Shown here: piece by piece, positions 1,224 to 31,469 of the stretch | Position numbering within the stretch: position 1 is the stretch's first letter | How the letters are laid out: each line of letters starts with the position of its first letter | NCBI GenBank assembly: GCA_021817785.1 | Contig: JAKAFY010000013.1 | Location: forward strand, 1 to 46,266 | DNA: 46,266 bases | Reading direction: 5' to 3' | DNA from: a bacterium | Lineage (GTDB): Bacteria; Patescibacteriota; Microgenomatia; UBA10105; UBA927 | Made by a program: the position numbers and the translations under genes | Notes under the pieces: generated by a model | The model's input: only the letters and a program-made list of their open reading frames with translations | Database searches by the model: none | Told to the model about the DNA's origin: nothing

Positions 1224-2426
1224 TTAAACAGCGGGAACATCCTTTCCCTTGATCCCCCCGATTCGCTGGACAAGCCACTTTCCGCCATCCCATGTTTTGT
1301 TCGTAAGCCAGTGTGACGGCGTGTAATTCGTTTTATTATCAACATCTCTCATGTAGCCAATAGCTGCACCGATGCCGGCATACGCGCCCTTGAGATTTCC
1401 TTTTGTATACTCATTATATGACTGGAAATTCGACCATCGTGTCCATACCTGCTCAAATAATGCGCCGAAAACAGGAACTTGATACGCGATCCGGAACAGG
1501 CTTTCAATCGTCGGCCCGTTTAGAAAGTCTTCGGCTACATCCTTAAATGCTGCCGTCAATAAATCATTGAGCTTATCCGACGCTTCACTGGTAAACCATC
1601 CCTTTTCACCGGTAAGGTGCCTCTGTATTGTGTTGCCAAAGGCTGTGACATTTTTGTCATTCATCACCTCGGTCATTCTCCAAAAAAGCTTCACGCCTCC
1701 GATTTGTCCGGTCAATGCGTTGATACTCTCCTGTAATTTTGGTGGTATCTGTATTTTCTCAATCAATTCCTCCACTTCTTTAGGGATCTTCTCATCCGCA
1801 ACTGTTTCCATTTTTTGGCTTGCAACTGCTTGAGCCAAAATTCCTTCTTTTTGGCTTTGTTTATCTACTTTAGCCGCATCCTGAGCTTTCGAGAGATCTT
1901 TTCTCAAATGATCGACGGTTGCTTTTTCAAGAAGATTGGGCGGGAGACTCGTCACGATATCTAGGGCTATATTCGGCACCATATTCCCAACCATGACCAC
2001 CGCACGCGTTGCGCGCGTTTTCATGTCCCCTATTTCCACACCACCACGGAAATCTTTATCAATCGCCATGACATGATCACCTGCGTGTTTTATAAACGCA
2101 ACTGGGTTGGTAAATTCTTCTTTTATGGCGACTTTCCATGCATCAAATTTTATCGGTCCACGTTTCACTTTATATGGAGATTTATCGCCGGTTTGATACA
2201 TTTCCCGGAAAAATTTTTGCCACTCGGTGGGCTCCGGTTCTGGAGGCTTCTTCAAAATTGCCACAGCTTCGTCAATCCGGTCCCAATTCAATCCGTCTGG
2301 CCGCTCGGCTTTCAACCGCTCAATAAACGCTTCGGGAAGCACGAAAGCGTTATCTGCCGGTCTGACCGGCTCAACGGGAGGCGCATAGGTAGGAGCTTCT
2401 ACATTCATATACAAAAGATCTGCCAA
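1224..2426 (-). CDS. cluster protein L1: uncharacterised Gly/Ala-rich protein
   Basis: I do not recognise this 400-aa protein. The N-terminus is proline-rich and acidic. Weakly hydrophobic stretches occur near residues 140-165 (VVMVGNMVPNIALDIV) and toward the C-terminus (LFRIAYQVPVFGALFEQV, then GAYAGIGAAIGYM), separated by a charged, probably helical, middle. No classical membrane helix is clear. The frame can start at TTG 2426, which sits 5 bases after a CATAAT box, or at ATG 2408; I kept the longer form. It is the last gene of the cluster before the terminator at 1006. The C-terminal R-x4-V-P pattern recurs in the 296-aa gene at 5324. Confidence 0.7.
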   Translation of the reverse strand: MADLLYMNVEAPTYAPPVEPVRPADNAFVLPEAFIERLKAERPDGLNWDRIDEAVAILKKPPEPEPTEWQKFFREMYQTGDKSPYKVKRGPIKFDAWKVAIKEEFTNPVAFIKHAGDHVMAIDKDFRGGVEIGDMKTRATRAVVMVGNMVPNIALDIVTSLPPNLLEKATVDHLRKDLSKAQDAAKVDKQSQKEGILAQAVASQKMETVADEKIPKEVEELIEKIQIPPKLQESINALTGQIGGVKLFWRMTEVMNDKNVTAFGNTIQRHLTGEKGWFTSEASDKLNDLLTAAFKDVAEDFLNGPTIESLFRIAYQVPVFGALFEQVWTRWSNFQSYNEYTKGNLKGAYAGIGAAIGYMRDVDNKTNYTPSHWLTNKTWDGGKWLVQRIGGIKGKDVPAV

Positions 2427-2476
2427 GGGGCATTATGTGAAGTATAACACAAAAATAGGCCTATAACAAGGGGGTG

Positions 2477-3361
2477 CTATGCCGTTTTTGAGGCTATTTC
2501 TGCAGTTGCTTGATCAGTCGCCTTTATTCTTGTGTTCATAACATGATACCCGAGTAGGAACTTATTGAATCCAACGTTGATAAATCCGGCGATAGCATTG
2601 TGCTCCAGGAGATGATCCATACCGTACTTTATCGGTCTTACAATGCTTCTAACAAGTGGTATGTCAGACATAATACGAAGCCCAGCTTCCGTATTGCCTG
2701 GATTGAGAAAATTGGCGCTTTTCTCTGCAAGCATCACACCCATAAATTTCTTAGGGGTACCATCTTCATTCAAAAATCCTATCCACTTGTCGTTAAAAAA
2801 CACCTGCATAATCGCATTAGCGTAGCCTGATATGTTCTCAGCAAATGCTTTCACATAGGTATGTTTATATTTATCCTCTGCATACTCATCTATCATAGAT
2901 TTCGGAGTATCTTCAAACACTTCTCCTTGATTAAATCCCATTACTATGTCTAGCGCTTTTTGTCCCACAATGGTGGCTACCCGATCGGAAAGCTCTTCTT
3001 CTGCAAAATCCAATCCGCTGCGTACTGCTTCTCGGGTGCGTATTGTATCGCGAATAATCTGAATCTGCATTTCATCGGCTATGCGCTGCATTTCTTTCTC
3101 CTGTGCTTTTGAGGCCGGCACAGAGGCTTTAATATGTTCGTTGCGTTCGTGAACTGCTTCTTTAAGCTTTTCTTCAAGTTGCTTCGATTTTCCGTTCAGC
3201 ATCCACCCGCTTACAGTTCGGTAAAGCTTACTTTCTAACAAATCCCAACCGGTATAAACAGCACCAATAATCGCATTGGTCAAAATGCGTTCTCCGGCAG
3301 AAGTACCCTCACCAGTTATTGTGGATTCCACACGATGTGATACCGAGCTTTCACTATTCAT
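2477..3361 (-). CDS. cluster protein L2: uncharacterised helical protein
   Basis: This is a protein of 294 aa from ATG 3361; a longer GTG start at 3382 is possible but its extension contains the TATACT box. It has no recognised family. An N-terminal segment (ILTNAIIGAVYTGWDLLESKLY) is moderately hydrophobic. A long charged region of coiled-coil character follows (about residues 45-110). The C-terminal third has R-x4-I-P (LRIMSDIPLVRSIV) and a glycine-containing hydrophobic end (IAGFINVGFNKFLLGYHVM). It lies between the small gene at 3410 and L1, on the same strand, with about 50 bases on either side. Confidence 0.7.
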   Translation of the reverse strand: MNSESSVSHRVESTITGEGTSAGERILTNAIIGAVYTGWDLLESKLYRTVSGWMLNGKSKQLEEKLKEAVHERNEHIKASVPASKAQEKEMQRIADEMQIQIIRDTIRTREAVRSGLDFAEEELSDRVATIVGQKALDIVMGFNQGEVFEDTPKSMIDEYAEDKYKHTYVKAFAENISGYANAIMQVFFNDKWIGFLNEDGTPKKFMGVMLAEKSANFLNPGNTEAGLRIMSDIPLVRSIVRPIKYGMDHLLEHNAIAGFINVGFNKFLLGYHVMNTRIKATDQATAEIASKTA

Positions 3362-3409
3362 AGTAAATCGGGAGTATAGCACAAAAAGTGTCCTATAGCA
3401 AGCAAAGAC

Positions 3410-3694
3410 TTATGGGGATAAAAATGCAAGTCCGAGCTTAATTTCTTCTATTGCATCTTGATTCAATACTTTTTCTTCTTCACTCATATCTTTTACTACG
3501 TGACCAAGTAGCGATTGTATTTGTGCACTGTGCTTGGCCACAGCCGTGGCGTAGGCGGCATCAAACGCATCTATTCCCTCCTCCAGCTTCTGCTTGTCTT
3601 CCGCGCTAGCCTCGTTTACTGCCACCAAAAGATCCACCTTTTGGGCGTCAGAAAACAGCTTGGTTGCCTGTATTTTTTTACATAAGTTTTGCAC
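3410..3694 (-). CDS. cluster small helical protein S1
   Basis: A 94-aa acidic, all-helical protein. It begins at GTG 3694, because a good Shine-Dalgarno (GAGGAGG) lies 7 bases before it, inside the end of the upstream gene; the two frames overlap by 17 bases. The N-terminus (IQATKLFSDAQKVDLL) fits the pattern shared by the other small cluster proteins: a helix, a small residue, then L/F-S-x3-K-x2-L. The overlap suggests coupled translation and a partner role for the 422-aa protein before it. Function unknown. Confidence 0.72.
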   Translation of the reverse strand: MQNLCKKIQATKLFSDAQKVDLLVAVNEASAEDKQKLEEGIDAFDAAYATAVAKHSAQIQSLLGHVVKDMSEEEKVLNQDAIEEIKLGLAFLSP

Positions 3695-4946
3695 GTTCTT
3701 CCTCCTCTTGCTGTTTACTTTGACTATTCCACTGGGATTTTCCGTAATACACTTTTTCCCTATTATAGGGTGGTTTATTCCCGTATTCCCGTCGTTCTCC
3801 CCGTGGCTGCCACTTATCTTTTTTCGGCATCTCCACTTTTTTACCTACCAGCCCACCTTTCTCTTTACGCACTTTCTGTACTTCTTTTATATTCTTAAAA
3901 AGCGTCGCCACTCCATCTATCATCATGCTTATTCCGAGATCAACGGGAGGATTAGAATATCTGAGCATTTTCTTTAATGTTGATTCTACTGGTTCTAAAT
4001 TAACTCCTAATTCGCTCCGATCATTATGTATTACTGTGGGTACGGGTGTTATTGTCGGCGAAAGAATACCATTCATTTCACTTTCAATAAGCTTAATTTG
4101 TGTAAGTAAAGACTTATATTCAGATGATGGCTCAACCATGTTGGTGGATTTCTTTATTTTTTCATCAAGATACGTTTTCTTACTAGTTAATTCGTTCCTT
4201 CGTTTGATTAGCGCCATCATATCGTTCGCATATTTTTCCCTCTCCTCCTTATTGAGGGCAACTTTGGTTGACGCTTCTTCAAATGCTTTTTGTGCCTCGT
4301 GTAGTTGTGCAGCTTGTCTATCTTCATGCGCTGCCTGTGTTCTGATTTGCGTATCCAGCCCCGGGGTCCCCCATGCGTTAGCAGCATCTATCCCAAGAGA
4401 TGCGAGCAAATGTTCCGATTGAACAGGTCGGAGGGCGCGGCTCGAAAAAAATGCGGCACTATTATATGCCATCGCGATCGCTAAATCCTTTACTCCGTTT
4501 GTAATAAAACTATACATCCTCGGATCACTCGTTCGAAGTTTTTTTAATTGTTCTGTAGATTCTTTGCTCAATTTCAGATTGAACATACGTGGTACAAGTG
4601 GTTCGTCTCCTTTTAACACCGAGTCGAACAGCTCATTAAGGCCTGCTTCCATTCCAACGCCGATAGCCGTCGTCATACCGCCTTCAAGGGTATATTCAAA
4701 CGCGCCTTTTCCCTCAAATTTCTCTTTGGCCATCCGGTCTGCCGTCACGATGTCGCTCACCAGGTCGCCAATCGACGTTTTCAGTTTTTCGAGGACGTTT
4801 GTTTTCTTTTCAGTTTCCGGCGTGATTGATTCTTTCACCTTTGCTACCCATTCGTCACTTTTATCCAGATCAAATGGTTTTTCTGGCACAGTACCTGCCG
4901 GCTTTGGCTCCGGTATACGTGGCTTTAGTGTTTCGTTGGGTTGCAT
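3678..4946 (-). CDS. cluster protein L3 with central coiled coil and basic tail
   Basis: A 422-aa protein of no recognised family. The N-terminus is proline-rich. Weakly hydrophobic Gly/Ala stretches lie near residues 90-105 (TTAIGVGMEAGLNELF) and 145-175 (ITNGVKDLAIAMAYNSAAFF). Residues about 210-290 are highly charged and heptad-like, consistent with a coiled coil. The last 50 residues are rich in Lys, Arg, Tyr and Asn. A TATAAT box ends 6 bases before ATG 4946, suggesting a leaderless transcript. The end overlaps the small gene S1. Confidence 0.72.
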   Translation of the reverse strand: MQPNETLKPRIPEPKPAGTVPEKPFDLDKSDEWVAKVKESITPETEKKTNVLEKLKTSIGDLVSDIVTADRMAKEKFEGKGAFEYTLEGGMTTAIGVGMEAGLNELFDSVLKGDEPLVPRMFNLKLSKESTEQLKKLRTSDPRMYSFITNGVKDLAIAMAYNSAAFFSSRALRPVQSEHLLASLGIDAANAWGTPGLDTQIRTQAAHEDRQAAQLHEAQKAFEEASTKVALNKEEREKYANDMMALIKRRNELTSKKTYLDEKIKKSTNMVEPSSEYKSLLTQIKLIESEMNGILSPTITPVPTVIHNDRSELGVNLEPVESTLKKMLRYSNPPVDLGISMMIDGVATLFKNIKEVQKVRKEKGGLVGKKVEMPKKDKWQPRGERREYGNKPPYNREKVYYGKSQWNSQSKQQEEEERAKLM

Positions 4947-4958
4947 ATGGTTATTATA
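4947..4958 (-). promoter_or_regulatory. -10 box of a probable leaderless promoter
   Basis: TATAAT (4953-4958, minus strand) is followed by six bases and then ATG 4946. Transcription would begin at or beside the start codon. No clear -35 box is seen. Confidence 0.5.
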
Positions 4959-5013
4959 CGCTAGTGTCTGCAGTAAAAGCTAAGCTTTATTGGACCTATT
5001 CTGCAAAAAAAGC

Positions 5014-5319
5014 TTAGCTTTTATCATTGTGTTTCGGAAAAAAGCCTTCGATCTGTTTTCTTGCTTTTTCTGCTAGCTCTTTTTTCTTTTCTGGGGCTAT
5101 TCCCGCCTCGTTCAGACTAGTGATAAATTGTGTGTACAATATTTCAAGTTTATCGCGTAAATACGCTTCGCGTGCTTTTGAGTTGTTATCAAATGATTCG
5201 AGCAAAGAGGCCATCTTTTTTTGATATGCTTCCGGCAATGGCGGATCGGCAAGCAGGAGCTCTTTTTGCTCTTTTGATAGCGCACGACTTTTCTTTACTA
5301 AACCTAAAAAATTATTCAT
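5014..5319 (-). CDS. cluster small helical protein S2
   Basis: A 101-aa charged helical protein of unknown function. The N-terminus (LVKKSRALSKEQKELLL) has the S-x2-LS-x3-K-x2-L pattern of the other small cluster genes. The C-terminal half (PEKKKELAEKARKQIEGFF) is another amphipathic helix. It starts 4 bases after the stop of the 296-aa gene, so the two are almost certainly cotranscribed. No obvious Shine-Dalgarno is seen, which fits translational coupling. Confidence 0.7.
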   Translation of the reverse strand: MNNFLGLVKKSRALSKEQKELLLADPPLPEAYQKKMASLLESFDNNSKAREAYLRDKLEILYTQFITSLNEAGIAPEKKKELAEKARKQIEGFFPKHNDKS

Positions 5320-5323
5320 AAAC

Positions 5324-6214
5324 TCAATTCGATATTTCCCGCGGAAACTCTATATGTTCTACCGATGGAACGGCTTTTTGCGTCGGTACTGCCATCTTGG
5401 CAAAGATCATGTTAAATGCCAAATCGGTCCCCATAGGGATGATCCCCTCCCCTTTCATAATCTGCGCATTGGCTTTTCCATAAAATTCTTTGACGAATCC
5501 ACCTCCGGGGACAGATCCGGCAAATCGGAAAAATCCTTCAATAACCCCTGGATTCCAGGCAGATTTTTTTACGATATTCCAGGGGTCCATACGATCAAAG
5601 TTTGGCGATACGTTCATGATGGTGTTGCCGATTTTTCCAAGCATGCGCGATAGCGGGGAAACAAATCCGATATCTTCTCGATTAGCAATTTTTTTTGCTG
5701 TCCAGTCCGCAGTCTTTTCTATTCCGAAGTCCGTTAGATATTCCCACCCTGCATCCAACATCCTCGTATTTCCTGTTTTTTCATCAAACCAGGGATGCTT
5801 ATTATTCCGATATAACGAGTTTGCAAGCATTTCCGTACCAAAGTTTGCGGCAAATGATCCTGCCATGTAGGTTGCTGAGGTAAGCAATTTCCCCAATCGC
5901 TCCTGATGTTCTGGATTGGTGTGTTCCTTTTCCCAATCAATCCACCGTTTTATGAGAGTTTGCTTATCCTTCGCTCCCTCTTGTACTTCTTTTGGAACAA
6001 GCTCATTCGCTGTTACTTCTGCAATACCGCCATAGGTCGCCACCGCGTCCTGCACCTCTTGTACTGCAACTGGCGACGCTACATCAAACACACGTTGCAT
6101 ATACTCGTTAAATAGCGTGTCTGCCTTCTTCTCAAGACGCTTCGGAGCCTCGGATTTCCCCACATACACCCAGTCGGCCTTCCCTTTGAAATCTTTGACG
6201 ATGCTTTCTGCCAT
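5324..6214 (-). CDS. cluster protein L4: uncharacterised Gly/Ala-rich protein
   Basis: A 296-aa protein with no recognised family. The middle holds a mild hydrophobic stretch (LTSATYMAGSFAANFGTEMLANSLY, written in part) and the C-terminal third has FFRFAGSVPGGGFVKEFYG and PMGTDLAFNMIFAKM. This matches the layout of L1 (R-x4-V-P, then a glycine-rich segment ending in a hydrophobic helix), so the two are probably distant paralogues. An uncoupled low-complexity repeat (6246-6302) lies between it and the preceding small gene. No Shine-Dalgarno is evident. Confidence 0.7.
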   Translation of the reverse strand: MAESIVKDFKGKADWVYVGKSEAPKRLEKKADTLFNEYMQRVFDVASPVAVQEVQDAVATYGGIAEVTANELVPKEVQEGAKDKQTLIKRWIDWEKEHTNPEHQERLGKLLTSATYMAGSFAANFGTEMLANSLYRNNKHPWFDEKTGNTRMLDAGWEYLTDFGIEKTADWTAKKIANREDIGFVSPLSRMLGKIGNTIMNVSPNFDRMDPWNIVKKSAWNPGVIEGFFRFAGSVPGGGFVKEFYGKANAQIMKGEGIIPMGTDLAFNMIFAKMAVPTQKAVPSVEHIEFPREISN

Positions 6215-6245
6215 ATATTTGACGTGCGGGAATTGAGCTGCGAGT

Positions 6246-6302
6246 CTCGGGTAGAGAACCTCATTCCTCGCTCCTCGATGCTCGTTTCTCGTTTCTCGTA
6301 TT
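6246..6302. repeat. low-complexity CTCG(A/T)TGCTCGTTTCTCG-type repeat
   Basis: Short direct repeats of CTCG, TTTCTCG and CTCGATGCTCG fill the gap between two cluster genes. A similar CTCGACGCTCGACGCTC run is found inside copA (24141-24160), so this seems to be a dispersed repeat type. Confidence 0.5.
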
Positions 6303-6585
6303 ACGACGCTTTCCCCGTCCCTACATACACCGCTGTCGCACTCGGCGCTTTAATAGGCTCCCCCACGATCTGGGTAAGCACGCTCTCTACTCCCTTTTGA
6401 ATATCCTCCGGAAATTCCTCACGAATCTTTTCTTCGGTGGCCAGAAACTTCCCCAGCGCCTCAATTTGCTCTTCGGTAAGTAATGGAAACGCATCGATGA
6501 TATCGAGTTTCTGGCTGTATGACAGAAGCATGCTCGACTCGATAAGTGTCATAAGTGCGTCTTGTTTTTGTTTTAATGTATTCAT
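6301..6585 (-). CDS. cluster small helical protein S3
   Basis: A 94-aa helical protein of unknown function. The N-terminus (LMTLIESSMLLSYSQKLDII) and the segment TEEQIEALGKFLATEE follow the common small-protein pattern of the cluster. The C-terminus is Pro/Ala-rich and non-helical. It follows the 429-aa gene by 21 bases. The last codons run into the low-complexity repeat at 6246-6302. Confidence 0.68.
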   Translation of the reverse strand: MNTLKQKQDALMTLIESSMLLSYSQKLDIIDAFPLLTEEQIEALGKFLATEEKIREEFPEDIQKGVESVLTQIVGEPIKAPSATAVYVGTGKAS

Positions 6586-6606
6586 ATATGACCCAAGAGA
6601 TCTATC

Positions 6607-7896
6607 TTATGCCGCTGCCGGTGCCACCTGAGGTACAAACGTATCCGCCGCCTGCTTCCGTTCTGCCATATTCCGCATCCCCCGTTGTAGCGTGTACCCT
6701 AGCACATCCATCGCCATGTCTTTATACATCATAACCCGCTTAAATGAGTTAACCTCTAGTTGTATCGCCGCGGGTATCATGTCGATTCCCTGCATACCCA
6801 CCATCTCAAGGAGTCCGGTGGTTGTTGTAAGCCATACCGGCACATCCGGGGTCAAGTTCAACCATCGGTCAAAAAATAGTTTAAGTTTGGTATTCTTTGA
6901 TGCTGCCGCAGTTGTTTCGATTATACCTGGTGCCTTTTTCATGAATTGTGACTCAAGCCCTGCCCGAACGATGTTATGCCCCGCTGTCTTTTCTGCAATA
7001 ACCTTTGCAATCTCTGCGTCCCGGGTCGCTTTTACTACCTTTGCCGCTTCCGTTCCCGCATGAATCGCCTCCCTGTGTTGCAAGCGGCCAAACAAGTTAT
7101 ACCACGCGAGATCATGCTTTAAACCCGCCTCAGTAAGAGGCTTCATATAGGCGGTGGCTGATTCGGCAGCCTTACTTTTTTGTAAAGCTGCAATTGCATC
7201 TACCCCAGCTTTTTTAGTGAGATTTTCTGTCAACACCCTCGTCCCCTCTTTCATTGCGTTTTGCCCCTCACGAATTATCTTCAATTCAGCCGCTGTTTTT
7301 CCTGCCAGATATGCCGGTAGTGGTTGTAATGCATCGTGAACATGTGCTGTGGCATTTTTCAGAATTCCGACTTTCTTTCCGGCTGTTTCGGCACCAATCC
7401 GTGCAATTTCCACGGCACTTTTAGATCGGGAAATATTATATCCTAATCTTGCTTTCTTCCACGCGCGCTTTCCTCGTTCAATCGGTTCAACATGAAGTGT
7501 TTTTAGATTCACCATCCCATTCACTACGGCTGGATTCTCTTTTGTACCAATGCCAAATAGACCTGTCCCTAACCCTTTCCCCTCTCCAAGCACAGGAATT
7601 AGGCTTATGGCGAGCGACGCTCCCGCCTTCAAGTCATTAATCGCAAGATCCTTACTCTTTTGCTGATATGGTTTCACGGTCTCTTTGAGTCCCTCCCAAA
7701 ACCCCATTTCATCTATATTCCTCGTCACGACCGCTTTGGGATCCATCGCCTCCGCCATCATGCGCTCACGGAGCGCCAGAAGCTTCTCCTGCTGTTCTGG
7801 CGCAAGCTTTTGGAACTCCGGCATATCTTCCAGACGTTGGTGCGAAACTTCCTGTTCTGGCTCTGGCCCCTGAGGCATTTCACCGATCTCACTCAT
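6607..7896 (-). CDS. cluster protein L5: Ala-rich helical protein
   Basis: A 429-aa protein of unknown function. The N-terminus is acidic and proline-rich, followed by a hydrophobic glycine stretch near residues 90-115 (ASLAISLIPVLGEGKGLG). The long middle is alanine/lysine-rich helix; the C-terminal part (VPVWLTTTTGLLEMVGMQG) is moderately hydrophobic, ending in an Ala/Pro tail. The IPVLGEGK segment recalls pretoxin linkers of exported toxins, but there is no toxin domain after it. A TATACT box stands 6 bases before ATG 7896. It follows the ABC-domain gene by 18 bases. Confidence 0.72.
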   Translation of the reverse strand: MSEIGEMPQGPEPEQEVSHQRLEDMPEFQKLAPEQQEKLLALRERMMAEAMDPKAVVTRNIDEMGFWEGLKETVKPYQQKSKDLAINDLKAGASLAISLIPVLGEGKGLGTGLFGIGTKENPAVVNGMVNLKTLHVEPIERGKRAWKKARLGYNISRSKSAVEIARIGAETAGKKVGILKNATAHVHDALQPLPAYLAGKTAAELKIIREGQNAMKEGTRVLTENLTKKAGVDAIAALQKSKAAESATAYMKPLTEAGLKHDLAWYNLFGRLQHREAIHAGTEAAKVVKATRDAEIAKVIAEKTAGHNIVRAGLESQFMKKAPGIIETTAAASKNTKLKLFFDRWLNLTPDVPVWLTTTTGLLEMVGMQGIDMIPAAIQLEVNSFKRVMMYKDMAMDVLGYTLQRGMRNMAERKQAADTFVPQVAPAAA

Positions 7897-7908
7897 ATAT
7901 CCAGTATA
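7897..7908 (-). promoter_or_regulatory. -10 box of a probable leaderless promoter
   Basis: TATACT (7903-7908, minus strand) followed by six bases and ATG 7896. Confidence 0.5.
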
Positions 7909-7913
7909 GCAAA

Positions 7914-10166
7914 TTATGGCTTCGCTATTGCCTCGAGCACTTGGTGATCATTCAACTCCGGTGTACGTTCCGGCTTTTTATTAAGCTCGGCTAAGTTTAT
8001 TGTCCGATCCGTGTGCTTGGCGAAATCCTCATCATGGGTCACGGTTACAATCGTTGTCTCGGGATGGGTCTTTCGCATCGCCTGTAATGTAGCTACCAGC
8101 CTGTCTATCGAATCCAAGTCCAGATTTGCGGTCGGCTCATCCAAAAAGAGAATTTGCGGATTGGTAAGAAGTGAGCGTACCATTGACAATAATCGTTTTT
8201 CCCCACCCGAGAAATGATTCCCGGTTTCGTTTAATCGCGGAATAAGCTTCTCCAGTCCCAAATCCTTCATGGTCGTAACCACTTTTTCTTCCGGGATGTC
8301 TTTATTCCATAGGAGAAGGTTCTCTTTCAGCGTCATCGTATCGATAAGCCCCGCGCTCTGTGGCGAGTATCCAAACTTGGCATGGAGTGCTTCTCGTCCA
8401 AATTTTTTGATCCCATCCACATCGACTCCGCCATACGTCACTCGGCCGGCTTCAGGTTGATTGAGTCCAAGCATCGCGCGAAGTAACGTCGTTTTTCCTT
8501 CACCTTTTTGCGCACGTATTGCCACAAATTCCCCCTGTTTGATGTCAAAGGATACATCACGCAAAATACCTTTGACGCTCAGATTTTGTATGGAAATATC
8601 CAAATTTGGCAAACTGGAAACAGGGACGCGCTGCTTTTCCCGTGGCCCGTCCGGACGATCCAGCATATCCCACGGGCCTAATAACTGCTCCATTTGCGCA
8701 ATATCCTGCAAATCGGGAATTAAATTGTTTGCATAGATCGACGTCAGTCTACTTGCCTCCCCTGCGGTACCGTACTGAAGGGAATTAAATTGCTGTGCTT
8801 TCACAGCGGACAAAAAAAGTGACCGAATCTCTGCATCAGCAAGCTGACGCGATATTGGCTGTTGACTCATCCCCAACTGAAGCACCTGACCCGGATTACT
8901 GTAATCCATATCTTGAAGCTCAATATCACGAACAATCGCCCCAGCAATAATAGGTGAAATATATTTATTACGGGCTTGCAGATATTCCGTTGCGGTCACC
9001 ACGACCGGAGCTGCGCGATTATAGACAAAATGCACGATCTTTTCCCATCCTTCGCGCGATGTTTTTTTCATGCGGTCCTGGCTATAGAGCGCTTCCCGTT
9101 CCCGCATCGCCTCCTGTAGCTGAGTAGCCACATCAGCGGATTTACCAGAGGCCTGCGCAATCTCGAGATTCGATAGCAGGCTAGAAATTCGTGCGTCAAT
9201 TGCATCTGCTTCGGTATACATATGACCACGAGCAGACAGCAATTCTTTCACTTGTTTTTCCGCACCTTTATACAACCACCACAATCTCGTGCCGCCAAAC
9301 GCCGTCGCAAGCTTGTTTATCTGCCACGCCGGAATCAGGTTCGATACCATGCGTGCCATCCCAGGGTACGCATCGGCACGTATAGAAGCTATAAGATCTA
9401 TGGAGGCCAACTTCCCCCGCTCTATAATATTAAGCACCTCTGACGGCGGTATATCCTGTATAAAGGCATATTTCTGAAGCAACAGCGATTCCGTGGTGCG
9501 CTGATTAATTTTGTTCCCCACATCTTCCAACGCATTATTCAGACTTTTATTGGCCTGCAGCGTCACTTGATCTGCTACCAGGTTCATCGCGGTTGGGGCC
9601 CACAATCCGGCGGTTTTACCCAATACTTTTCCGACAAATGATTTTGAATCAAAATTGGACGTAGATTTCCGCTGCTGCCATTGATGCAAGAGGTCTGCAT
9701 AAACATTTAGTTCATCCTTATCCCCAATCACCCGGTCAAAAAACTCCTGCATCGCATACTGTCCAAATCCCGAAACCAACTCGAGTCCCACCATGAGACT
9801 ACCGGCGGTTTTTATCTTTCTCCGTGTCTCCGGCGTGGTATACAGCCGTTCCACGTACGAGAGCGTATTGGTTATATCAGCAAAAGTCGGAAGTGCATCA
9901 ACAGGAGGTGTTGTCTCTGGTTTTACAGCTAACCGTTCGGCCACTGTGCCAATGCGATCCTCGCGTATTTCCTCGCCGTTCTTCTCAAGGTCTCTGGCCA
10001 ACGTTCTGGCATATGTTTCTATCCTTTTCGCATCCGGTCGCTCACCGCTTGCCGCATCGTGAGCAAGCTCCAAAGAGGCTTTTGCAGTCTCCAAAGACAA
10101 TTCCAACGGCTTCCCTACTTCTTTCTCAGGGATCTTTAGTCGTACATCGGGCTTCTCCGTGCTCAT
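7914..10166 (-). CDS. ABC-exporter-like protein with eroded membrane region and intact ATPase domain
   Basis: A 750-aa protein. The C-terminal ATPase domain (about 522-735) has a Walker A-type loop ARAQ-like start at 551-560 (RAQKGEGKTT), in which the first glycine of GxxGxGKT is alanine (A552). It also has a Q-loop (SPQ, 601-603), a signature SGGE (653-656), a Walker B with catalytic glutamate (D676-E677) and the H-loop histidine 711. The N-terminal 500 residues follow the spacing of an ABC exporter, including a QDIPPSEVLNIIERGK segment like the usual FFD-x3-GEL-x2-R element. Its would-be membrane helices are short, polar and interrupted by a charged insert (about 300-375). The protein may therefore be membrane-peripheral. 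Its place in the middle of the cluster suggests it powers or remodels the complex. Confidence 0.75.
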   Translation of the reverse strand: MSTEKPDVRLKIPEKEVGKPLELSLETAKASLELAHDAASGERPDAKRIETYARTLARDLEKNGEEIREDRIGTVAERLAVKPETTPPVDALPTFADITNTLSYVERLYTTPETRRKIKTAGSLMVGLELVSGFGQYAMQEFFDRVIGDKDELNVYADLLHQWQQRKSTSNFDSKSFVGKVLGKTAGLWAPTAMNLVADQVTLQANKSLNNALEDVGNKINQRTTESLLLQKYAFIQDIPPSEVLNIIERGKLASIDLIASIRADAYPGMARMVSNLIPAWQINKLATAFGGTRLWWLYKGAEKQVKELLSARGHMYTEADAIDARISSLLSNLEIAQASGKSADVATQLQEAMREREALYSQDRMKKTSREGWEKIVHFVYNRAAPVVVTATEYLQARNKYISPIIAGAIVRDIELQDMDYSNPGQVLQLGMSQQPISRQLADAEIRSLFLSAVKAQQFNSLQYGTAGEASRLTSIYANNLIPDLQDIAQMEQLLGPWDMLDRPDGPREKQRVPVSSLPNLDISIQNLSVKGILRDVSFDIKQGEFVAIRAQKGEGKTTLLRAMLGLNQPEAGRVTYGGVDVDGIKKFGREALHAKFGYSPQSAGLIDTMTLKENLLLWNKDIPEEKVVTTMKDLGLEKLIPRLNETGNHFSGGEKRLLSMVRSLLTNPQILFLDEPTANLDLDSIDRLVATLQAMRKTHPETTIVTVTHDEDFAKHTDRTINLAELNKKPERTPELNDHQVLEAIAKP

Positions 10167-10206
10167 ACTCTATATTGTAGCGTATTATTATATACTTATA
10201 AAAAGC
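10167..10206. promoter_or_regulatory. divergent promoter region
   Basis: Only 40 bases separate the ABC-like gene (minus) from the plus-strand gene at 10207. On the minus strand TACAAT (10174-10179) lies 7 bases before ATG 10166. A second TATAAT is found at 10187-10192 on the same strand. On the plus strand TATACT and TATAAA boxes precede ATG 10207. The region is AT-rich and both starts lack a Shine-Dalgarno. Confidence 0.5.
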
Positions 10207-10935
10207 ATGTCAGAAACTTCTCCCACCGCCGTCTTCTATGGCTCGTCCGGCGCTGAGCCCATGAAACCGCCGAAACAGGAGCAATCCAAAGCGGTGAGCG
10301 GCGTCCGTCGCGCCGTCAACGCATGGCTCGACCGAATTGGTCCGGGAAGTGTTGAAAAACATTTCGTAAAAGCACATGAGAATATCCTAAAGACGTTCAA
10401 CAACGAAGAGAGAGCAAAAGCATATGAACAAACCGGGTTAACATGGAAAAAATGGGGCAAAGCGCTTGGTATTACCGCAATGGTCATCGACAGCGGATTA
10501 GCAGGATTAGGAATCGCTATCACCCAAGATTGGGTTAACAATCCCCGTGTTGGCAGACAAGCCGTCAGGATTCTTGGGGAACGCACGGATAGACGAACGG
10601 GATTTTGGGATAAAGAACCGACAAACCCCGGCGTATTACGCACATTATATCTTCGATTATCACCGAATATTTTTATCAGCGGCGTAGTGCCCAACGACCT
10701 ACTAAAAGGCAACTTTGAACAGAATCGGAGTAATCCAACAATTCTTCATGAACGAGAATATGCAAGCAGGATAGGGACAATCACCTCAATTATTCCCGGT
10801 CTTGCTACTTTATTGCCGCTCACGGGTATCGGCCCCATGCATATGGTTATGCATCTTATCGCAACAGGTGCTGAAACCGTCGGGAAAATGAAGGCAAGAT
10901 CAAAAATCACAAAAACACGAATAGATAAGAAGTAA
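10207..10935 (+). CDS. cluster protein L6, the only plus-strand member
   Basis: A 242-aa protein from ATG 10207; 16 more codons upstream are open but carry the promoter. It is unknown in function. The N-terminus (TAVFYGSSGAEP) loosely resembles the Gly-rich motif of other members. Two hydrophobic glycine stretches follow: about residues 85-105 (GITAMVIDSGLAGLGIAIT) and 195-220 (ITSIIPGLATLLPLTGIG). Its composition and layout match the minus-strand large proteins, so it belongs to the cluster in spite of its orientation. It ends convergently with the 11942 gene. Confidence 0.72.
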   Translation: MSETSPTAVFYGSSGAEPMKPPKQEQSKAVSGVRRAVNAWLDRIGPGSVEKHFVKAHENILKTFNNEERAKAYEQTGLTWKKWGKALGITAMVIDSGLAGLGIAITQDWVNNPRVGRQAVRILGERTDRRTGFWDKEPTNPGVLRTLYLRLSPNIFISGVVPNDLLKGNFEQNRSNPTILHEREYASRIGTITSIIPGLATLLPLTGIGPMHMVMHLIATGAETVGKMKARSKITKTRIDKK

Positions 10936-10988
10936 ATAGCCCCACGTTGTGGGTACGGACTACAAGAAACGCATAGTCGTGTACATCG

Positions 10989-11942
10989 TTAAGATGAGTC
11001 TTTTGCCAAACCCCGTTCTACCGCTTCCTGTGCAGCCTTTTGAGCAGCCGCTTGCCGATCTTTCATCGCAACATAATCCGCCTTGGATGGCATAGGATTC
11101 CCGGAATTTTCGTAATACGCCTTATCCGGGTGATGTGTCACCCAATCCTGATATTCCCGATCAAGCTTGGTATTTGCGGCTTTCTGTTTGGCATCTGCTA
11201 TTTTCTGTTCCGTCATTCTCGTCTCATTTTTCATACGGTTTTGCGCTTCCATGGTATGCCGACGCTCCGCTTCAAAAGATGTACGAGACTGCTCTCCCTG
11301 CACACGATAAAATTCCTGCTGCCATACAGCCGCCTCCCGTCGTACGCTCGCTAAAGTATCCTGCAATCGCGCGTTCATCTCTTGCAACTGACTAAGCTTG
11401 TACTCTGCATATTTATACTTAAGCCCAAGCTCTACTTTCGCGTCCTGTACGGTTGCAAGCATCGCCTCTTTTACGTTGTTCCCAACTGGACGCTTCTGTT
11501 CCAGTGTATGGAGGACTGACACATCCTTGCCGTCCACGACTTCCGTGACGACCTGGGATGGAATGTTCGTTTCTTTGTGGAATGCGTGTTTTATTTCCTG
11601 GAAAAAATTAAGCTTCTTCCACATGCCCGACTTTCGGTCAAATTCCACGTTCTTTTCTTTCAGTTTCCCCCACATATCCAGCTCTTTCGTGTAGGTTTTG
11701 CGCGTCGCAAATTGCACCTTGCTCATGTCGCTTTTTTCGGGGAATGAATAGTCGCTAAAGACGCCGTCTCCTTCCGCCACACGATACACCTCTCGATTTT
11801 CCTGCCAGTCACCGGAAACGCGATAATGGTATTGGTTATCTGGCTTGGGGATGAGGTCGGCAAGCTCTTTAACGGTATCCACCGGTAAGGCTACTTCTTT
11901 GAGCTTCGGTCGCTCACCCATCATTTTTGGTATTTCGGTCAT
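10989..11942 (-). CDS. cluster coiled-coil protein
   Basis: A 317-aa protein from ATG 11942, chosen because a TATAAT box and a short AGGAT-like stretch lie just before it and the upstream codons overlap that box. The first 130 residues look globular. Residues about 155-290 are a long Gln/Glu/Arg-rich helix likely to form a coiled coil, and the tail is Ala/Lys-rich. There is no hydrophobic helix. The N-terminus M-G-E-R-P is close to the G-x-G-R-P motif of three neighbours. A structural or tethering role is possible but inferred. Confidence 0.7.
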   Translation of the reverse strand: MTEIPKMMGERPKLKEVALPVDTVKELADLIPKPDNQYHYRVSGDWQENREVYRVAEGDGVFSDYSFPEKSDMSKVQFATRKTYTKELDMWGKLKEKNVEFDRKSGMWKKLNFFQEIKHAFHKETNIPSQVVTEVVDGKDVSVLHTLEQKRPVGNNVKEAMLATVQDAKVELGLKYKYAEYKLSQLQEMNARLQDTLASVRREAAVWQQEFYRVQGEQSRTSFEAERRHTMEAQNRMKNETRMTEQKIADAKQKAANTKLDREYQDWVTHHPDKAYYENSGNPMPSKADYVAMKDRQAAAQKAAQEAVERGLAKDSS

Positions 11943-12013
11943 ATAATCCTCATTATATATCAAAGCATCCGTTGACAATAACACCTTTTATTACTCATAT
12001 TCTACACGCGGTA

Positions 12014-12340
12014 TCAACGATCTATTGGTATTAAGAAATGTTGTATCAATTTTACTCCACCAAACGCAATCGCAGATGAAACAACGGCTAATGCCCCATA
12101 ATTCCCCACAACCCGCAATTTAGTGGAATTTTTGATGGATTTATCCAACTTTTCCATCGCTTTTACGCGGTCATCTTCGGAAAGCGAAGCGTTTATCTTG
12201 GTCATCTCCTCAATTTCTTTCGTATGGGTTTTCCGCCACGCCTCTTCCGCGCCGCCAAACGTAAATGTTTTCTTTGCCCAATCTTTAAGCGTTGGCTTTG
12301 TTTCAGACCTCCCTATACCGGTCAACACAACTTCGGACAT
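12014..12340 (-). CDS. small cluster membrane protein with GxGRSE motif
   Basis: A 108-aa protein. The N-terminus reads VVLTGIGRSETK, containing the G-x-G-R-[PS]-E motif seen in two larger neighbours. A charged helical middle leads to one clear C-terminal hydrophobic segment (YGALAVVSSAIAFGGVKLIQHF), so the protein is probably anchored at its C-terminus. TATAAT (12347-12352) precedes ATG by exactly six bases, suggesting a leaderless message. Function unknown. Confidence 0.7.
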   Translation of the reverse strand: MSEVVLTGIGRSETKPTLKDWAKKTFTFGGAEEAWRKTHTKEIEEMTKINASLSEDDRVKAMEKLDKSIKNSTKLRVVGNYGALAVVSSAIAFGGVKLIQHFLIPIDR

Positions 12341-12352
12341 ATCAGTATTATA
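12341..12352 (-). promoter_or_regulatory. -10 box of a probable leaderless promoter
   Basis: TATAAT at 12347-12352 (minus strand), six bases before ATG 12340. No -35 box of good quality was seen. Confidence 0.55.
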
Positions 12353-12488
12353 TACTCCCCGCCTTCACCGCGGCATCTTTCGGTAGTAATGGAATTGTTT
12401 CAAGTGATACCGTTGCCATTATTATATCGTATTCTTCTTGAAATTCCCTAAGTACTCTAAGTGACGCAAGAGACCTCAGTACATCATA
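12353..12488 (-). other. intergenic region with a 23-codon frame
   Basis: The only thing of note is a short open frame at 12348-12419 (MATVSLETIPLL...), preceded by a TATAAT at about 12420-12426. It is too short to call a gene. Confidence 0.3.
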
Positions 12489-12682
12489 TTACTGAAGGAT
12501 TATGTCGACGCCGGAGCGGATAGTGGAAGAGGCATTCTGAAGGTGCTTTTTATCCCAAGGCTTTGTTTTTGCTACTATAGCATCAAGCATGCCGTAGATT
12601 GATTTTTTATACTCGCACCGATCTTGCTAAGATCAGCAGAGCCTATAAATTGAGGACCTTTCGATATTTCAGACCTATGCAA
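12489..12682 (-). pseudogene. small helical gene broken by one frameshift
   Basis: Two minus-strand frames join into one plausible protein of about 64 residues if one base is added to a run of six A (12603-12608 on the plus strand as T). The first part reads ...GPQFIGSADLSKIGASIK and the second ...SIYGMLDAIVAKTKPWDKK down to a TAA at 12489. A TTG start at 12682 would lie right after the stop of the 204-aa gene. Either the gene is decaying, or the run was miscounted in the assembly. Confidence 0.4.
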
Positions 12683-12688
12683 AAAATA

Positions 12689-13303
12689 TTATTGAACTTG
12701 AGTCGGGCCTGCTTCTGCTGCAGGTTCTTTATGCAGTATTTTATTCGTCCACTTGGCGACACGTTCACCCATATTCCCACCTTTTTCAGCTAACCACATA
12801 CCAGTGCGACGCACGGGAGACAAATACATTATTCCCGAACCAATTGCAAAGCCGGCACCACCAACTCCTAAGGCTCCTATTACTTGTCCGGCACTATATT
12901 TTTTACCACCGGTCATTTCTGATGACAACGCACCGAATCCGGCCATATAAAACGGAAAGGCAATCACCGTAGGCACTGCTGATATGATTATATCCGCAGC
13001 AGCCGCACTCAAACGTGCTGCTTTAGCCCCCAATACTGCCGCTGGCCGGACTATCTGCGCTACCCGCTTCAATTGACCCTCATCTAACGCGTTCACGATC
13101 TTATCAAACTGATTAAGTTGAGTTTGTTCATACTCTTTTCCCAACCTTTTGAATTCAGATTTTTTTACCTGTTTCTCATGTATATCCCGGAGATTCTTTT
13201 CGGTGTTTGTTTTCCAATCTGATTTAATTTTATCTACAATATTTTTAGCCTGTACTTCAGGTCTGCCTACTCCTTCATATACTGATTGTGTGGTTTCTGA
13301 CAT
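12689..13303 (-). CDS. cluster membrane protein L7 with GxGRPE motif
   Basis: A 204-aa protein. The N-terminus holds V8 and G11-x-G-R-P-E16. A charged helical region (about 20-85) is followed by two hydrophobic Ala/Gly segments (about 98-125, AAADIIISAVPTVIAFPFYMAG in part, and 140-160, GQVIGALGVGGAGFAIGSGI). An amphipathic tail ends the protein. It has a good AAGGAGG Shine-Dalgarno and follows the small gene S4 by 8 bases. The hydrophobic pair could insert into a membrane as a hairpin. No family recognised. Confidence 0.75.
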   Translation of the reverse strand: MSETTQSVYEGVGRPEVQAKNIVDKIKSDWKTNTEKNLRDIHEKQVKKSEFKRLGKEYEQTQLNQFDKIVNALDEGQLKRVAQIVRPAAVLGAKAARLSAAAADIIISAVPTVIAFPFYMAGFGALSSEMTGGKKYSAGQVIGALGVGGAGFAIGSGIMYLSPVRRTGMWLAEKGGNMGERVAKWTNKILHKEPAAEAGPTQVQ

Positions 13304-13311
13304 ATGCCTCC

Positions 13312-13635
13312 TTATGGTATTTTTTGTTTTGTTAACACTGCTTCCATTGTGTCTAACACGGCAAGAATTTTCTGCTGCGTTTCCCGAAGCACAGCCCCAT
13401 CCCCGACGGATGCTTCAAGTAATCCCACAAGCGCATCCGGCGTATTTTTGGCGGGATCATTGACCATCTCATCAAGTTTTTCCTGTGGCATGGCAGTAAT
13501 AAGCGTGGCCATCACCACGTCCTTTATCCCCTGCTGCATCGTAGCATAAAGCTCTGCCTTCACGTCATTACTAAGCGCCGACTGCTGCACACGAAGTACA
13601 ATATGTTTCACTTTGTCTTCTAATATATCTGTCAT
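13312..13635 (-). CDS. cluster small helical protein S4
   Basis: A 107-aa acidic helical protein. It has the family pattern IVLRVQQSALSNDVKAELYATM and a later EKLDEMV segment, clearly paralogous to the genes at 14135 and 14930. The start overlaps the stop of the 166-aa gene by 4 bases (ATGA), so translation is probably coupled. The pattern resembles the DUF5663-type small proteins of CPR bacteria, although I could not test that. Confidence 0.78.
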   Translation of the reverse strand: MTDILEDKVKHIVLRVQQSALSNDVKAELYATMQQGIKDVVMATLITAMPQEKLDEMVNDPAKNTPDALVGLLEASVGDGAVLRETQQKILAVLDTMEAVLTKQKIP

Positions 13636-14132
13636 ACGCGTTGAAATCTTGGATCAAATATCCGATCAGTGATATTCAATACCTTTCCGCCGGGTATCAG
13701 TTCTTTAAACGCTTTCTGTGTATCAATATATTGTTTCATCTTTTCCGATTGCGCTTCAGCTGCCCCTCGAATTTTTGCCTTTCTCATATTCTCAAATTGA
13801 CCTGTCGGCACCTCTACACCACGAAGTTTTCCGACGGCGCGGTATCCCAATGATACGGTGTCCTGCACGGCATCAATCATCCTCGCGGATACGTCGTCAA
13901 TCCTCCCAACCACTTTATTCCAAAAATCTGCTATTTTTACATTCCATGAACCGCGCTGATCTTCTGGGATTTGAGAAACGATCTTCTGGAACGCTTCTCT
14001 ATGAGTGTCGTATACGCTTTTTTCCGGCATTGCGGCATCAAACGCCTCTTTTGCCTGTTCGATGATGGGGTGGGAAATTTCTGATTCGGGACGGCCTTCT
14101 CCAAATCGGACTTCAGTTTGAGTTGCATCCAT
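13632..14132 (-). CDS. cluster protein L8 with GxGRPE motif
   Basis: A 166-aa soluble-looking protein. V8 and G11-x-G-R-P-E16 occur at the same positions as in the 204-aa neighbour, while the rest differs. The remaining sequence is helical and amphipathic without a membrane segment. A GAGGGAG Shine-Dalgarno precedes ATG 14132. The start is 2 bases after the stop of the S5 gene and the end overlaps S4, so it is locked between two small genes. Confidence 0.75.
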   Translation of the reverse strand: MDATQTEVRFGEGRPESEISHPIIEQAKEAFDAAMPEKSVYDTHREAFQKIVSQIPEDQRGSWNVKIADFWNKVVGRIDDVSARMIDAVQDTVSLGYRAVGKLRGVEVPTGQFENMRKAKIRGAAEAQSEKMKQYIDTQKAFKELIPGGKVLNITDRIFDPRFQRV

Positions 14133-14134
14133 GC

Positions 14135-14446
14135 CTACACTCCCTCTTCTTTAAGAGCGCTATCTACTTCCGCAAGCACATTATTCATAAGGCCATCGAT
14201 CTCTTTAAGCGCTACACCGTCTTTTATGGTGTCTTCGATAAGCTTGGCGTAGCTTTCGACCGTCACTCGGCCCTTGGGGTCGGCGGACAGATATTCAAGT
14301 TGCTCTTTTGGCATGTACTTTAAAAGCACCGGCCATACGGTTGCCTGTAATCCTTCGGAAATGGTAGCGTATAGCTCCGCTTTGTCATCATTAGACATTT
14401 TACTCTGTTCTATACGCGTAACAATCGCTTTCAATTTTTCTTCCAT
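14135..14446 (-). CDS. cluster small helical protein S5
   Basis: A 103-aa acidic helical protein. Aligned without gaps, 56 of 103 residues are identical to the gene at 14930, by hand count, so the two arose by duplication. Conserved parts are MEEKLKAI, RIEQS, LYATIS-x-GLQA, PKE and AKLIE. An AAGGAGG Shine-Dalgarno lies before the start. It precedes the 166-aa gene by 2 bases. Function unknown; a chaperone or adaptor for the adjacent large protein is a reasonable guess. Confidence 0.8.
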   Translation of the reverse strand: MEEKLKAIVTRIEQSKMSNDDKAELYATISEGLQATVWPVLLKYMPKEQLEYLSADPKGRVTVESYAKLIEDTIKDGVALKEIDGLMNNVLAEVDSALKEEGV

Positions 14447-14483
14447 ACAGCCTCCTTAAAGTTCTCGTTTAATATTAACTACA

Positions 14484-14933
14484 CTATTTCAATATTGCTG
14501 GATGTGTAATCCAACTCCAAATATTTTTAATTCTATCCCCAATGAATGGTGAAGAAATAGCACCTTTAAATGTCGCTGCTTCTGCAGCAAACCATCCTGA
14601 AAGATTGCCTGCCATAACGGCACTGTATGCTGCAGGTCCAAATGCTACAGCGGCTCCGGCGACAGCCAAACCAGCACCGGTGGCCACCCAATTACGAACA
14701 ACCTTCCATGTCGCACTCTTCTGAGCAACCTTCTCATAATACTGGAGCATCTCTGCACGTTGATCGCCGGTAAACCGGTCGTACGTATCGGCGTATTTCT
14801 GTAATTCCTTCGCGGTTGCTCCTTTTATCGTATACGTTTCCGACAAAAACTTTCCGACCCGTTCTGCCACCCTACCTACGACATTTTTCTTCAGTTCGAC
14901 TGGTGCCGCTGTTTCTCCAGTAGCCTCACTCAT
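14484..14933 (-). CDS. cluster membrane protein L9
   Basis: A 149-aa protein with a basic, helical first half and one strong Ala/Gly hydrophobic segment at about 82-112 (VATGAGLAVAGAAVAFGPAAY in part). It continues to an amphipathic Trp-containing tail. ATG 14933 overlaps the stop of the small gene S6 (ATGA) and has an AAAGGAGG Shine-Dalgarno. It lacks the G-x-G-R-P motif. Likely membrane-inserted; function unknown. Confidence 0.75.
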   Translation of the reverse strand: MSEATGETAAPVELKKNVVGRVAERVGKFLSETYTIKGATAKELQKYADTYDRFTGDQRAEMLQYYEKVAQKSATWKVVRNWVATGAGLAVAGAAVAFGPAAYSAVMAGNLSGWFAAEAATFKGAISSPFIGDRIKNIWSWITHPAILK

Positions 14934-15241
14934 ATGCGCTCCTCCTTTAGGGCAGCATCAACTTCATCTAGTAATTTATTCGTAACATCGTCGATTTCCG
15001 CGAGTGCCATACCGTCCTGTATGGATGCTTCGATCAGCTTAGCAAATTCAAGCGCGGAAAGTTTATCTTTTGGAAGAGCAGCGATCACATCCATTTTCTC
15101 CTTCGGGACATGCTGCATGATCGTGGGCCAGATAGATGCCTGGAGCCCCGAAGAAATCGTCGCGTAAAGCTGAGACTTCTCTTCCACTGAAAGAGAGGAC
15201 TGTTCTATGCGTTTGATGATAGCCTTAAGTTTCTCCTCCAT
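14930..15241 (-). CDS. cluster small helical protein S6
   Basis: A 103-aa acidic helical protein, the closest paralogue of the gene at 14135 (54 percent identity by hand alignment). It begins 6 bases after the stop of the 193-aa gene and ends in an ATGA overlap with the 149-aa membrane protein gene. Such placement supports a fixed pairing of small and large genes. Function unknown. Confidence 0.8.
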   Translation of the reverse strand: MEEKLKAIIKRIEQSSLSVEEKSQLYATISSGLQASIWPTIMQHVPKEKMDVIAALPKDKLSALEFAKLIEASIQDGMALAEIDDVTNKLLDEVDAALKEERI

Positions 15242-15247
15242 ACAGAA

Positions 15248-15829
15248 TTAACGAGAGCTTCCCGTCATGATTGGCTGAGGAGGTGCTTCTATCGGCTTTC
15301 CCCCACCAAGAATTAAATTGGCTATCGGTGCGGCTACTTCAGCTCCAATAAAACCAGCGCCTGCGCCTATTCCTTGGGCTACTAGTTCAACTGGACGAAA
15401 TATGACAGTTGTGCCCAATCCAACAATACCAATTGCTGTCTGCCTCAACGGTCCGCCATCAGGAGCAATTGCTTCAATTAATGGAGATTTTGTAGCGAAT
15501 AATGAGCCTAGCACTAATTCCCCTGCTCCTGCAGCATATCGCCACACGCGAGCGACATCATATGCAAATGGACGTAATCCATCCATTGCTCTTTTAGCCA
15601 TATTATCATTTAGTCGATCATAAGTTTTTTCATACCCAGTCACCGCTGCAACTTCGACCGCTTTCCAACGACCTTTTGGTATAGGAATAGCTGAACTTAT
15701 ATGCCCCTCTAATTTTGTAATCTTATCTCCCTTGCCAAATCGTGTCTTATCACGATAATCTATATAACGTATTGCTCTCACCGCAGCGCTTTCGGCTTGA
15801 TTCTCCATGTTCATTGGTTGTTCACTCAT
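15248..15829 (-). CDS. cluster membrane protein L10
   Basis: A 193-aa protein. The first 90 residues are charged and helical. The second half holds Gly/Ala-rich hydrophobic stretches (YAAGAGELVLGSLFAT; QTAIGIVGLGTTVIF; GIGAGAGFIGAEVAAPIANLILGG in part), enough for two or three membrane-associated segments. The tail is Pro-rich. ATG 15829 overlaps the stop of the small gene S7 (ATGA), with AAGGAG upstream. Unknown function. Confidence 0.75.
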   Translation of the reverse strand: MSEQPMNMENQAESAAVRAIRYIDYRDKTRFGKGDKITKLEGHISSAIPIPKGRWKAVEVAAVTGYEKTYDRLNDNMAKRAMDGLRPFAYDVARVWRYAAGAGELVLGSLFATKSPLIEAIAPDGGPLRQTAIGIVGLGTTVIFRPVELVAQGIGAGAGFIGAEVAAPIANLILGGGKPIEAPPQPIMTGSSR

Positions 15830-16164
15830 ACAATCTTCTCCTTTTTTAGGGCAGTTTCGACGTCAGTAAGTACCTCATTTGCCACCGCATTCAGTTCTTT
15901 ATACATTTCTATATTTTTAAATGCGGGAGTCATTAAATTCACATACGTATCAACTGTTACCTTCGAGGGATTCATTTCTAGACCTTTCAACTCCTCCCGA
16001 TTCACGTATTTTAATAAAATAGGCAAAACAACACTATTCAAACTTTTACTCATTTGTGCATATAACAGCTCTTTATCAGCATCGGGAATTTTAGAATTCT
16101 CTACCTGAATAACTATAGCGATAAGTCGCTCTTTGATGTCGCGTTCTTCAGTTTTTGTATCCAT
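15826..16164 (-). CDS. cluster small helical protein S7, first gene of the array
   Basis: A 112-aa acidic helical protein with the pattern IVIQVENSKIPDADKELLYAQM and LLKYVNREELKGL, more divergent than the other three upstream copies. It starts 33 bases after the stop of glutamate dehydrogenase and has no Shine-Dalgarno; a TACAGT box lies 8 bases before ATG. It is translationally coupled to the 193-aa membrane protein gene. Function unknown. Confidence 0.76.
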   Translation of the reverse strand: MDTKTEERDIKERLIAIVIQVENSKIPDADKELLYAQMSKSLNSVVLPILLKYVNREELKGLEMNPSKVTVDTYVNLMTPAFKNIEMYKELNAVANEVLTDVETALKKEKIV

Positions 16165-29117: not shown

Positions 29118-29127
29118 AGGAAATATC

Positions 29128-30096: not shown

Positions 30097-30134
30097 TTGT
30101 GTGATACCGCACAGTGCTTTCCGGAAAAGTCCCC

Positions 30135-30147
30135 TATACTAACCAGT
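30135..30147 (+). promoter_or_regulatory. -10 box of a probable leaderless promoter
   Basis: TATACT (30135-30140), seven bases, then ATG 30148. Confidence 0.5.
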
Positions 30148-30603: not shown

Positions 30604-30627
30604 GAACCCAAGATAGAAAGGGATACT

Positions 30628-31383: not shown

Positions 31384-31469
31384 TCCAAATAGAGCGAAAG
31401 AAAATTGACAGGCGTAATAGAGGAATCCCCGCTTCTGTAAACTGTAAACTTGTGTTTCTATAAACTTTT

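Follow-up and report, generated by a model that had tools for sequence, protein, structure and literature searches.

To our knowledge, bacteria have only a small number of targeting tags, most of which serve known shells or secretion machines; a large part of the proteome in the Candidate Phyla Radiation is uncharacterised. The closest described systems are the cargo-loading peptides of encapsulins, which are short and terminal, usually C-terminal and sometimes N-terminal, and are carried by different proteins encoded beside their receptor (PMC7355545), and the encapsulation peptides of bacterial microcompartments, which are also terminal, are joined to their cargo by a disordered linker and drive co-assembly (PMC12339742). 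The gene cluster described here lies in a patescibacterial contig of 46,266 nucleotides (the window, meaning the whole stretch analysed) and resembles the encapsulin loci in that a short terminal peptide recurs on several neighbouring proteins, but the carriers include an ABC ATPase and small helical proteins rather than redox or ferritin cargo. It also differs from the microcompartment peptides, which are amphipathic helices of ~18 residues, whereas the tag here is a glycine/aromatic motif of 8-9 residues. Membership of either system is ruled out, as neither shell family is present in the seven genomes examined: the HK97-type encapsulin shell (PF04454) was found in 0 of 7, with the control positive in T. 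maritima and two others, and the microcompartment shell (PF00936) in 0 of 7, with the control positive in E. coli and S. elongatus. By analogy, the tag most likely works like the targeting peptides of encapsulins or microcompartments without belonging to either.

The cluster comprises about 20 genes in ~15 kb (1224-16164), flanked by glutamate dehydrogenase (16198) on one side and a tRNA-Ala region (807) on the other. Almost all of its genes are on the minus strand, and several overlap by 4 bases as small/large pairs. It is present with conserved synteny in all seven genomes of one Patescibacteria genus (Ca. Gottesmanbacteria/Woesebacteria), several of which apparently come from groundwater, to judge from isolate names. 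Searches of 19 further genera of the same order and of a wider class sample (219 genera) did not find the cluster, and scanning 84,980 species genomes by pattern returned the six congeners only. Searches of the cluster proteins against Pfam, NCBIfam, PHROGs and PADLOC gave nothing except the ABC domain, the PADLOC anti-phage test yielding only generic ABC/SMC ATPase matches and marginal ones (E >= 0.002), and a literature search found nothing on the cluster. The tag is notable in being genus-wide and usable at either terminus, in a cluster without annotated family except one ABC ATPase. Two features of the local gene order may be recorded. About 350 bases of the window (12341-12688) hold no convincing gene within this tightly packed cluster, possibly marking a decayed small-protein gene, and the genes at 10207-10935 and 10989-11984, on opposite strands, correspond to one fused gene in a congener (L009:13522-14610), where it lies on the strand opposite to its own cluster.

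The first-pass annotation had pointed to a motif, G-x-G-R-[PS]-E, near the N-termini of three proteins, and the positions that it gave are exact: V8 with G11-V-G13-R14-P15-E16 in the product of 12689-13303, V8 with G11-E-G13-R14-P15-E16 in that of 13632-14132, and G8-I-G10-R11-S12-E13 in that of 12014-12340, all on the minus strand (genes and their families are named below by their left coordinate). The motif is non-random, since shuffling residues 2-25 of 20 cluster proteins gave a mean of 0.002 matches and never three in 20,000 trials. A genome-wide check was made with DNA patterns and frame inspection. The 18-base pattern GGNNNNGGNMGNYCNGAR, which encodes the motif with Arg as MGN and Ser as TCN only, has six matches in the whole genome (1,275,721 bases, ~1.28 Mb); genes 12689, 13632 and 12014 hold the sole in-frame ones, and the other three are out of frame in glycyl-tRNA synthetase, DnaK and a large conjugation-type ATPase-like gene. 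The arginine codons of the three copies are unlike (AGA, CGT and AGG, with proline as CCT or CCC), so the similarity is one of protein sequence and not of recently copied DNA. The expectation that orthologues would keep the motif held for 12689, whose orthologue in the congener G003 has VYEGVGRPE unchanged (9/9) at an overall identity of 48%, and failed for the other two: relatives of 12014 in four other genomes lack the tag, and so do those of 13632, for which no tagged orthologue was found.

Judged by sequence, G-x-G-R-[PS]-E is one form of a wider tag at protein ends, [VI]-[YF]-x-[GA]-x-[GSA]-[KR]-[PAS], of which VRFGEGRPE (13632) and VLTGIGRSE (12014) are lineage-specific relatives. With the termini read in seven genomes, the tag lies at the N-terminus of some cluster proteins and at the extreme C-terminus of others, and the first-pass annotation had overlooked the copies at the C-termini of 6301, 3678 and the ABC protein. 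Its two weaker look-alikes part company: FYGSSGAEP at 10207 is a genuine instance of the tag, backed by a congener (VFYASAKPE), whereas MGERP at 10989 is without support. The tags and tag-like sequences in the window are as follows.

13256-13282, minus strand: N-terminal tag VYEGVGRPE, residues 8-16 of the 12689-13303 protein, identical in the G003 orthologue
14085-14111, minus strand: N-terminal tag VRFGEGRPE, residues 8-16 of the 13632-14132 protein, lineage-specific
12302-12328, minus strand: tag-like N-terminal VLTGIGRSE, residues 5-13 of the 12014-12340 protein, relatives without tag
10231-10260, plus strand: N-terminal tag VFYGSSGAEP, residues 9-18 of the 10207-10935 protein, VFYASAKPEAP in the G003 homologue
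6143-6169, minus strand: N-terminal tag VYVGKSEAP, residues 16-24 of the 5324-6214 protein, with congener versions
6304-6330, minus strand: C-terminal tag VYVGTGKAS, residues 86-94 and thus the end of the small 6301-6585 protein, in 7/7 genomes
3735-3752, minus strand: C-terminal tail tag VYYGKS, residues 399-404 of the 3678-4946 protein, VY invariant in 7/7 genomes
7917-7940, minus strand: C-terminal variant VLEAIAKP, end of the ABC protein, a loose match
6607-7896, minus strand: cluster protein with a conserved C-terminal F.P[QR], a possible weak tag variant

The wider tag is clearly kept in relatives for 6301, 5324, 3678 and the unlinked families. The 6301 protein ends in VYVGTGKAS, IYVGVGKPS, VYIGSGKAQ, VFVGTGKP (twice), VYIGTGKSS or VYVGTGKPS in the seven genomes, and the 5324 tag reads VYVGKAEAP, VYVGKGSAE, VYLGEGKAD (in two) and VYLGEGKAE in five congeners and is shifted in the sixth. 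The matches at the C-termini of the ABC protein and 6607 are loose only, and an ABC paralogue in congeners ends in QVFYASSASPSK or similar, a looser form of the tag. Several cluster families (1224, 2477, 5014, 3410, 14484 and 15248) are untagged, and the tag is therefore not required for every member.

The pattern [VI][YF].[GA].[GSA] occurs in the first or last 30 residues of 23 of 104 cluster proteins, a count that leaves out the 6301 family, and in 2 of 152 proteins encoded beside the cluster (Fisher 2.7e-8). In 500 trials with shuffled termini, tag matches averaged 1.1 and never exceeded 5, against the 23 observed, and the rate per 10,000 residues is 36.9 in terminal and 1.4 in internal sequence, or ~27-fold lower inside. 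The expression was refined on the same data, and orthologues from seven related genomes do not count as independent; we therefore added three tests less open to bias. The form V..G.G[KR], derived from the genes of the first-pass annotation and held out by applying it to proteins not used for deriving it, has 8 matches among 106 unused cluster proteins and none among 152 controls. When otherwise unrelated families were aligned profile to profile, unguided, the tag was the best local match for 5324-6301, 12689-6301 and 3678-6301; these matches are individually weak (E 0.005-0.1), yet all fall on the same few columns, and the tag was again the best local match when the unlinked protein was compared with the 6301 profile. 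The tag is also more conserved than its flanks in every family, with identities of 0.65 versus 0.17 in the 6301 family, 0.71 versus 0.41 in the 3678 family, and 1.0 versus 0.50, 0.88 versus 0.59 and 0.65 versus 0.40 in the others.

The unlinked carrier came from a search of the seven genomes with a strict DNA pattern for V[YF].G.G[KR] followed by frame inspection. Of its 50 matches, 15 fall close to the end of a plausible gene: the cluster accounts for 11, a single unlinked protein for three and a GIY-YIG-like protein for one. The unlinked protein (~198 aa) has the C-terminus VFVG[QR]GKA in G001, G004 and G005 and IFVGQGKA in the window's own genome (C25:21243-21821), making four genomes in total. 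It is homologous to 12689 (profile comparison 82%, E 1e-5; hmmsearch against the 12689 orthologue, E 1e-4), in which the tag is N-terminal; the tag has thus changed ends within one family, as expected for a portable docking motif.

The suggestion of a short conserved tag on different cargoes is well supported by its enrichment, confinement to termini, conservation above flanks, positions at both ends and presence on an unlinked homologue. These features, and its change of ends within a family, are shown by the sequences themselves; the receptor, the assembly and what it does are inferred. We propose, with a probability of roughly 60%, that it is a portable terminal short linear motif on several cluster proteins and at least one unlinked relative, and that it docks its carriers onto a shared partner. 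As in other short linear motifs, it is terminal, conserved above its flanks and portable between unrelated carriers, and for one carrier low pLDDT points to disorder: residues 1-30 of the 5324 AlphaFold model have pLDDT <35 and no helix at the tag, in a low-confidence model (mean pLDDT 49) that is too weak for a fold search. The tag, sitting in a flexible tail, would dock its carrier into a common groove of the shared partner, bringing the ABC-type ATPase together with the large and small helical proteins in one cytoplasmic or membrane-surface complex. A common component recognising the tag, as had been supposed, would be the natural counterpart of such sequences; of the roles offered for it, nothing favours cleavage over docking.

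Our best guess for the receptor is a 103-aa protein, which has no tag, is encoded in all the genomes and far exceeds the other cluster genes in conservation. It and its paralogues are:

14135-14446, minus strand: 103-aa helical protein, untagged, candidate hub or receptor, 67-81% identity across the genus, in 7/7 genomes
13312-13635, minus strand: paralogue of the 103-aa small family
14930-15241, minus strand: paralogue of the 103-aa small family
15826-16164, minus strand: paralogue of the 103-aa small family

Two copies of this family are fused head to tail in G003 as one 212-aa ORF (L009:12252-12890). A fifth paralogue is found in an unlinked two-gene unit (L123:5743-6798, in G000:C25; G002:C29:2656-3707; G005:C1:100995-102039) together with a larger protein related to 13632 (83%, E 8e-6), adjoining a gene that resembles ribosomal protein S1. 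A phylum-wide search with the 103-aa family gave only marginal matches in 13 genomes outside the genus, and the eight neighbourhoods examined there are unrelated.

More tentatively, and with the odds somewhat against it, the whole may be a genus-specific Patescibacteria machine or organelle, built from soluble ABC-exporter-like ATPases and helical families and served by a targeting peptide, usable at either end, that would also recruit proteins encoded elsewhere. If true, this would be a multiprotein system not described before, equipped with a targeting peptide of its own. The tag gives a direct handle, in the form of a bait peptide and a list of tagged proteins, on a wholly uncharacterised system in the Candidate Phyla Radiation.

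The ABC protein bears both on this proposal and on an alternative one, in which the tag is an export signal, cleaved or uncleaved, read by an ABC protein that exports the tagged proteins.

7914-10166, minus strand: 750-aa ABC protein with type IV exporter-like architecture and an ATPase domain, without hydrophobic membrane helices

An exporter-type protein is indeed encoded in the cluster, and the tags are terminal. Its ATPase domain has exporter-type matches with Walker B and the signature SGGE, the first glycine of Walker A being degenerate in the window's copy (AQKGEGKT), and Foldseek aligns the 7914 protein end to end with Atm1/TM287-type exporters over ~590 columns, using a model that is of low confidence outside the ATPase domain. 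It is thus like the type IV ABC exporters (Atm1, TM287/288, MsbA class) in alignment and ATPase matches, but its helical region has no hydrophobic membrane segment: a search for six hydrophobic transmembrane helices found no 19-residue segment with hydropathy above 1.6, and among the ABC proteins including those of congeners the maximum is 1.07-1.79 and mostly below 1.6. Such a loss of membrane hydrophobicity is an unusual fate for a transporter fold. Four congeners have 2 or 3 copies of exporter-type ABC proteins without membrane hydrophobicity. Export is made unlikely by this near or complete lack of hydrophobic segments, by the tag-like ends of the ABC proteins themselves and by the occurrence of the tag at both protein ends. 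In the docking model, the ABC protein would drive assembly or remodelling and not act as a classical exporter, given the lost hydrophobicity of its membrane helices.

A processing or degradation signal common to the cluster, either a protease cleavage site or a degron, would suit the position of the tag, which lies within 25 residues of a terminus in most carriers and at the very C-terminal end of 6301 and the unlinked protein. Library scans found no protease family encoded in the cluster, however, and only 1-2 residues follow the motif in 6301 and the unlinked protein and 4-15 precede the N-terminal copies, so few that cleavage would do little; we consider such a signal quite improbable.

Relationships among the cluster proteins raise the alternative that the carriers are diverged paralogues sharing nothing but ancestry, the motif being a remnant of an ancestral N-terminus. 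Profile comparison does reveal distant homologues, placing 5324, 2477 and 1224 in one group (97%, 93%, 86%) and 6301, 5014 and 3410 in another (92%, 65%, 51%), and linking 12014 to 14484 (93.1%, E 3e-7) and 12689 to 15248 (92.7%, E 4e-7). The claim that the proteins are dissimilar outside the motif therefore stands in part, with these last two links as exceptions. The untagged homologues are:

15248-15829, minus strand: homologue of 12689, 4-base overlap with its small partner
14484-14933, minus strand: homologue of 12014, 4-base overlap with its small partner
2477-3361, minus strand: homologue of 5324 (97.4%, E 1e-11)
1224-2408, minus strand: homologue of 5324 (92.8%, E 4e-7)
5014-5319, minus strand: small helical protein, homologue of 6301
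3410-3694, minus strand: small helical protein, homologue of 6301 and 5014

Most homologues of tagged proteins thus lack the tag, which does not follow ancestry; the tagged families are, by profile comparison, mutually unrelated outside the tag; and its switch of ends between 12689 and the unlinked relative is a further argument against a remnant. Common ancestry alone has, in our estimate, about as little chance as processing.

With a plain position matrix the enrichment is weak (8 of 104 versus 2 of 152 at the strictest threshold, P=0.012) and Rossmann GxGxxG starts reach the scores of some tags; a BLOSUM-smoothed matrix derived from 6301 is confounded by such starts. This confounding indicates the importance of the aromatic residue at the second position. 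A DNA pattern for a looser aromatic form shows no overall excess in the window's own genome (67 matches versus 80 in the reversed control), so a match tells something only if it lies close to the end of a real gene. We rejected a Walker A or a Rossmann reading because the spacing is wrong or no matching domain surrounds the motif. Chance combined with resemblance to glycine-rich loops (Rossmann GxGxxG or Walker A-like GxGK) finds some support in those high-scoring N-termini, but is very improbable given the aromatic second position, confinement to tails including C-terminal ones, conservation above flanks, the absence of Rossmann or P-loop matches around the tag, and the few termini with the aromatic form among neighbouring genes (2 of 152).

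Two other sets of tag-like sequences were seen. The GIY-YIG nuclease-like protein (L168:8910-9221, in G001:C23) ends in RVVYFGTGKAVNTHL, which is tag-like, occurs in one genome only and is possibly due to chance. A second tandem array (L124:7002-12398; G000:C20 about 29001-34397) encodes five proteins with a homologous N-terminal region, two of which had no match when scanned against family libraries. Their N-termini contain V[LF]xG (VFVGVGN, VLYGIGR, VLIGSWN, MFIGVAR and VLIGMWD), which could be related to the tag or simply mark where an ordinary helix begins.
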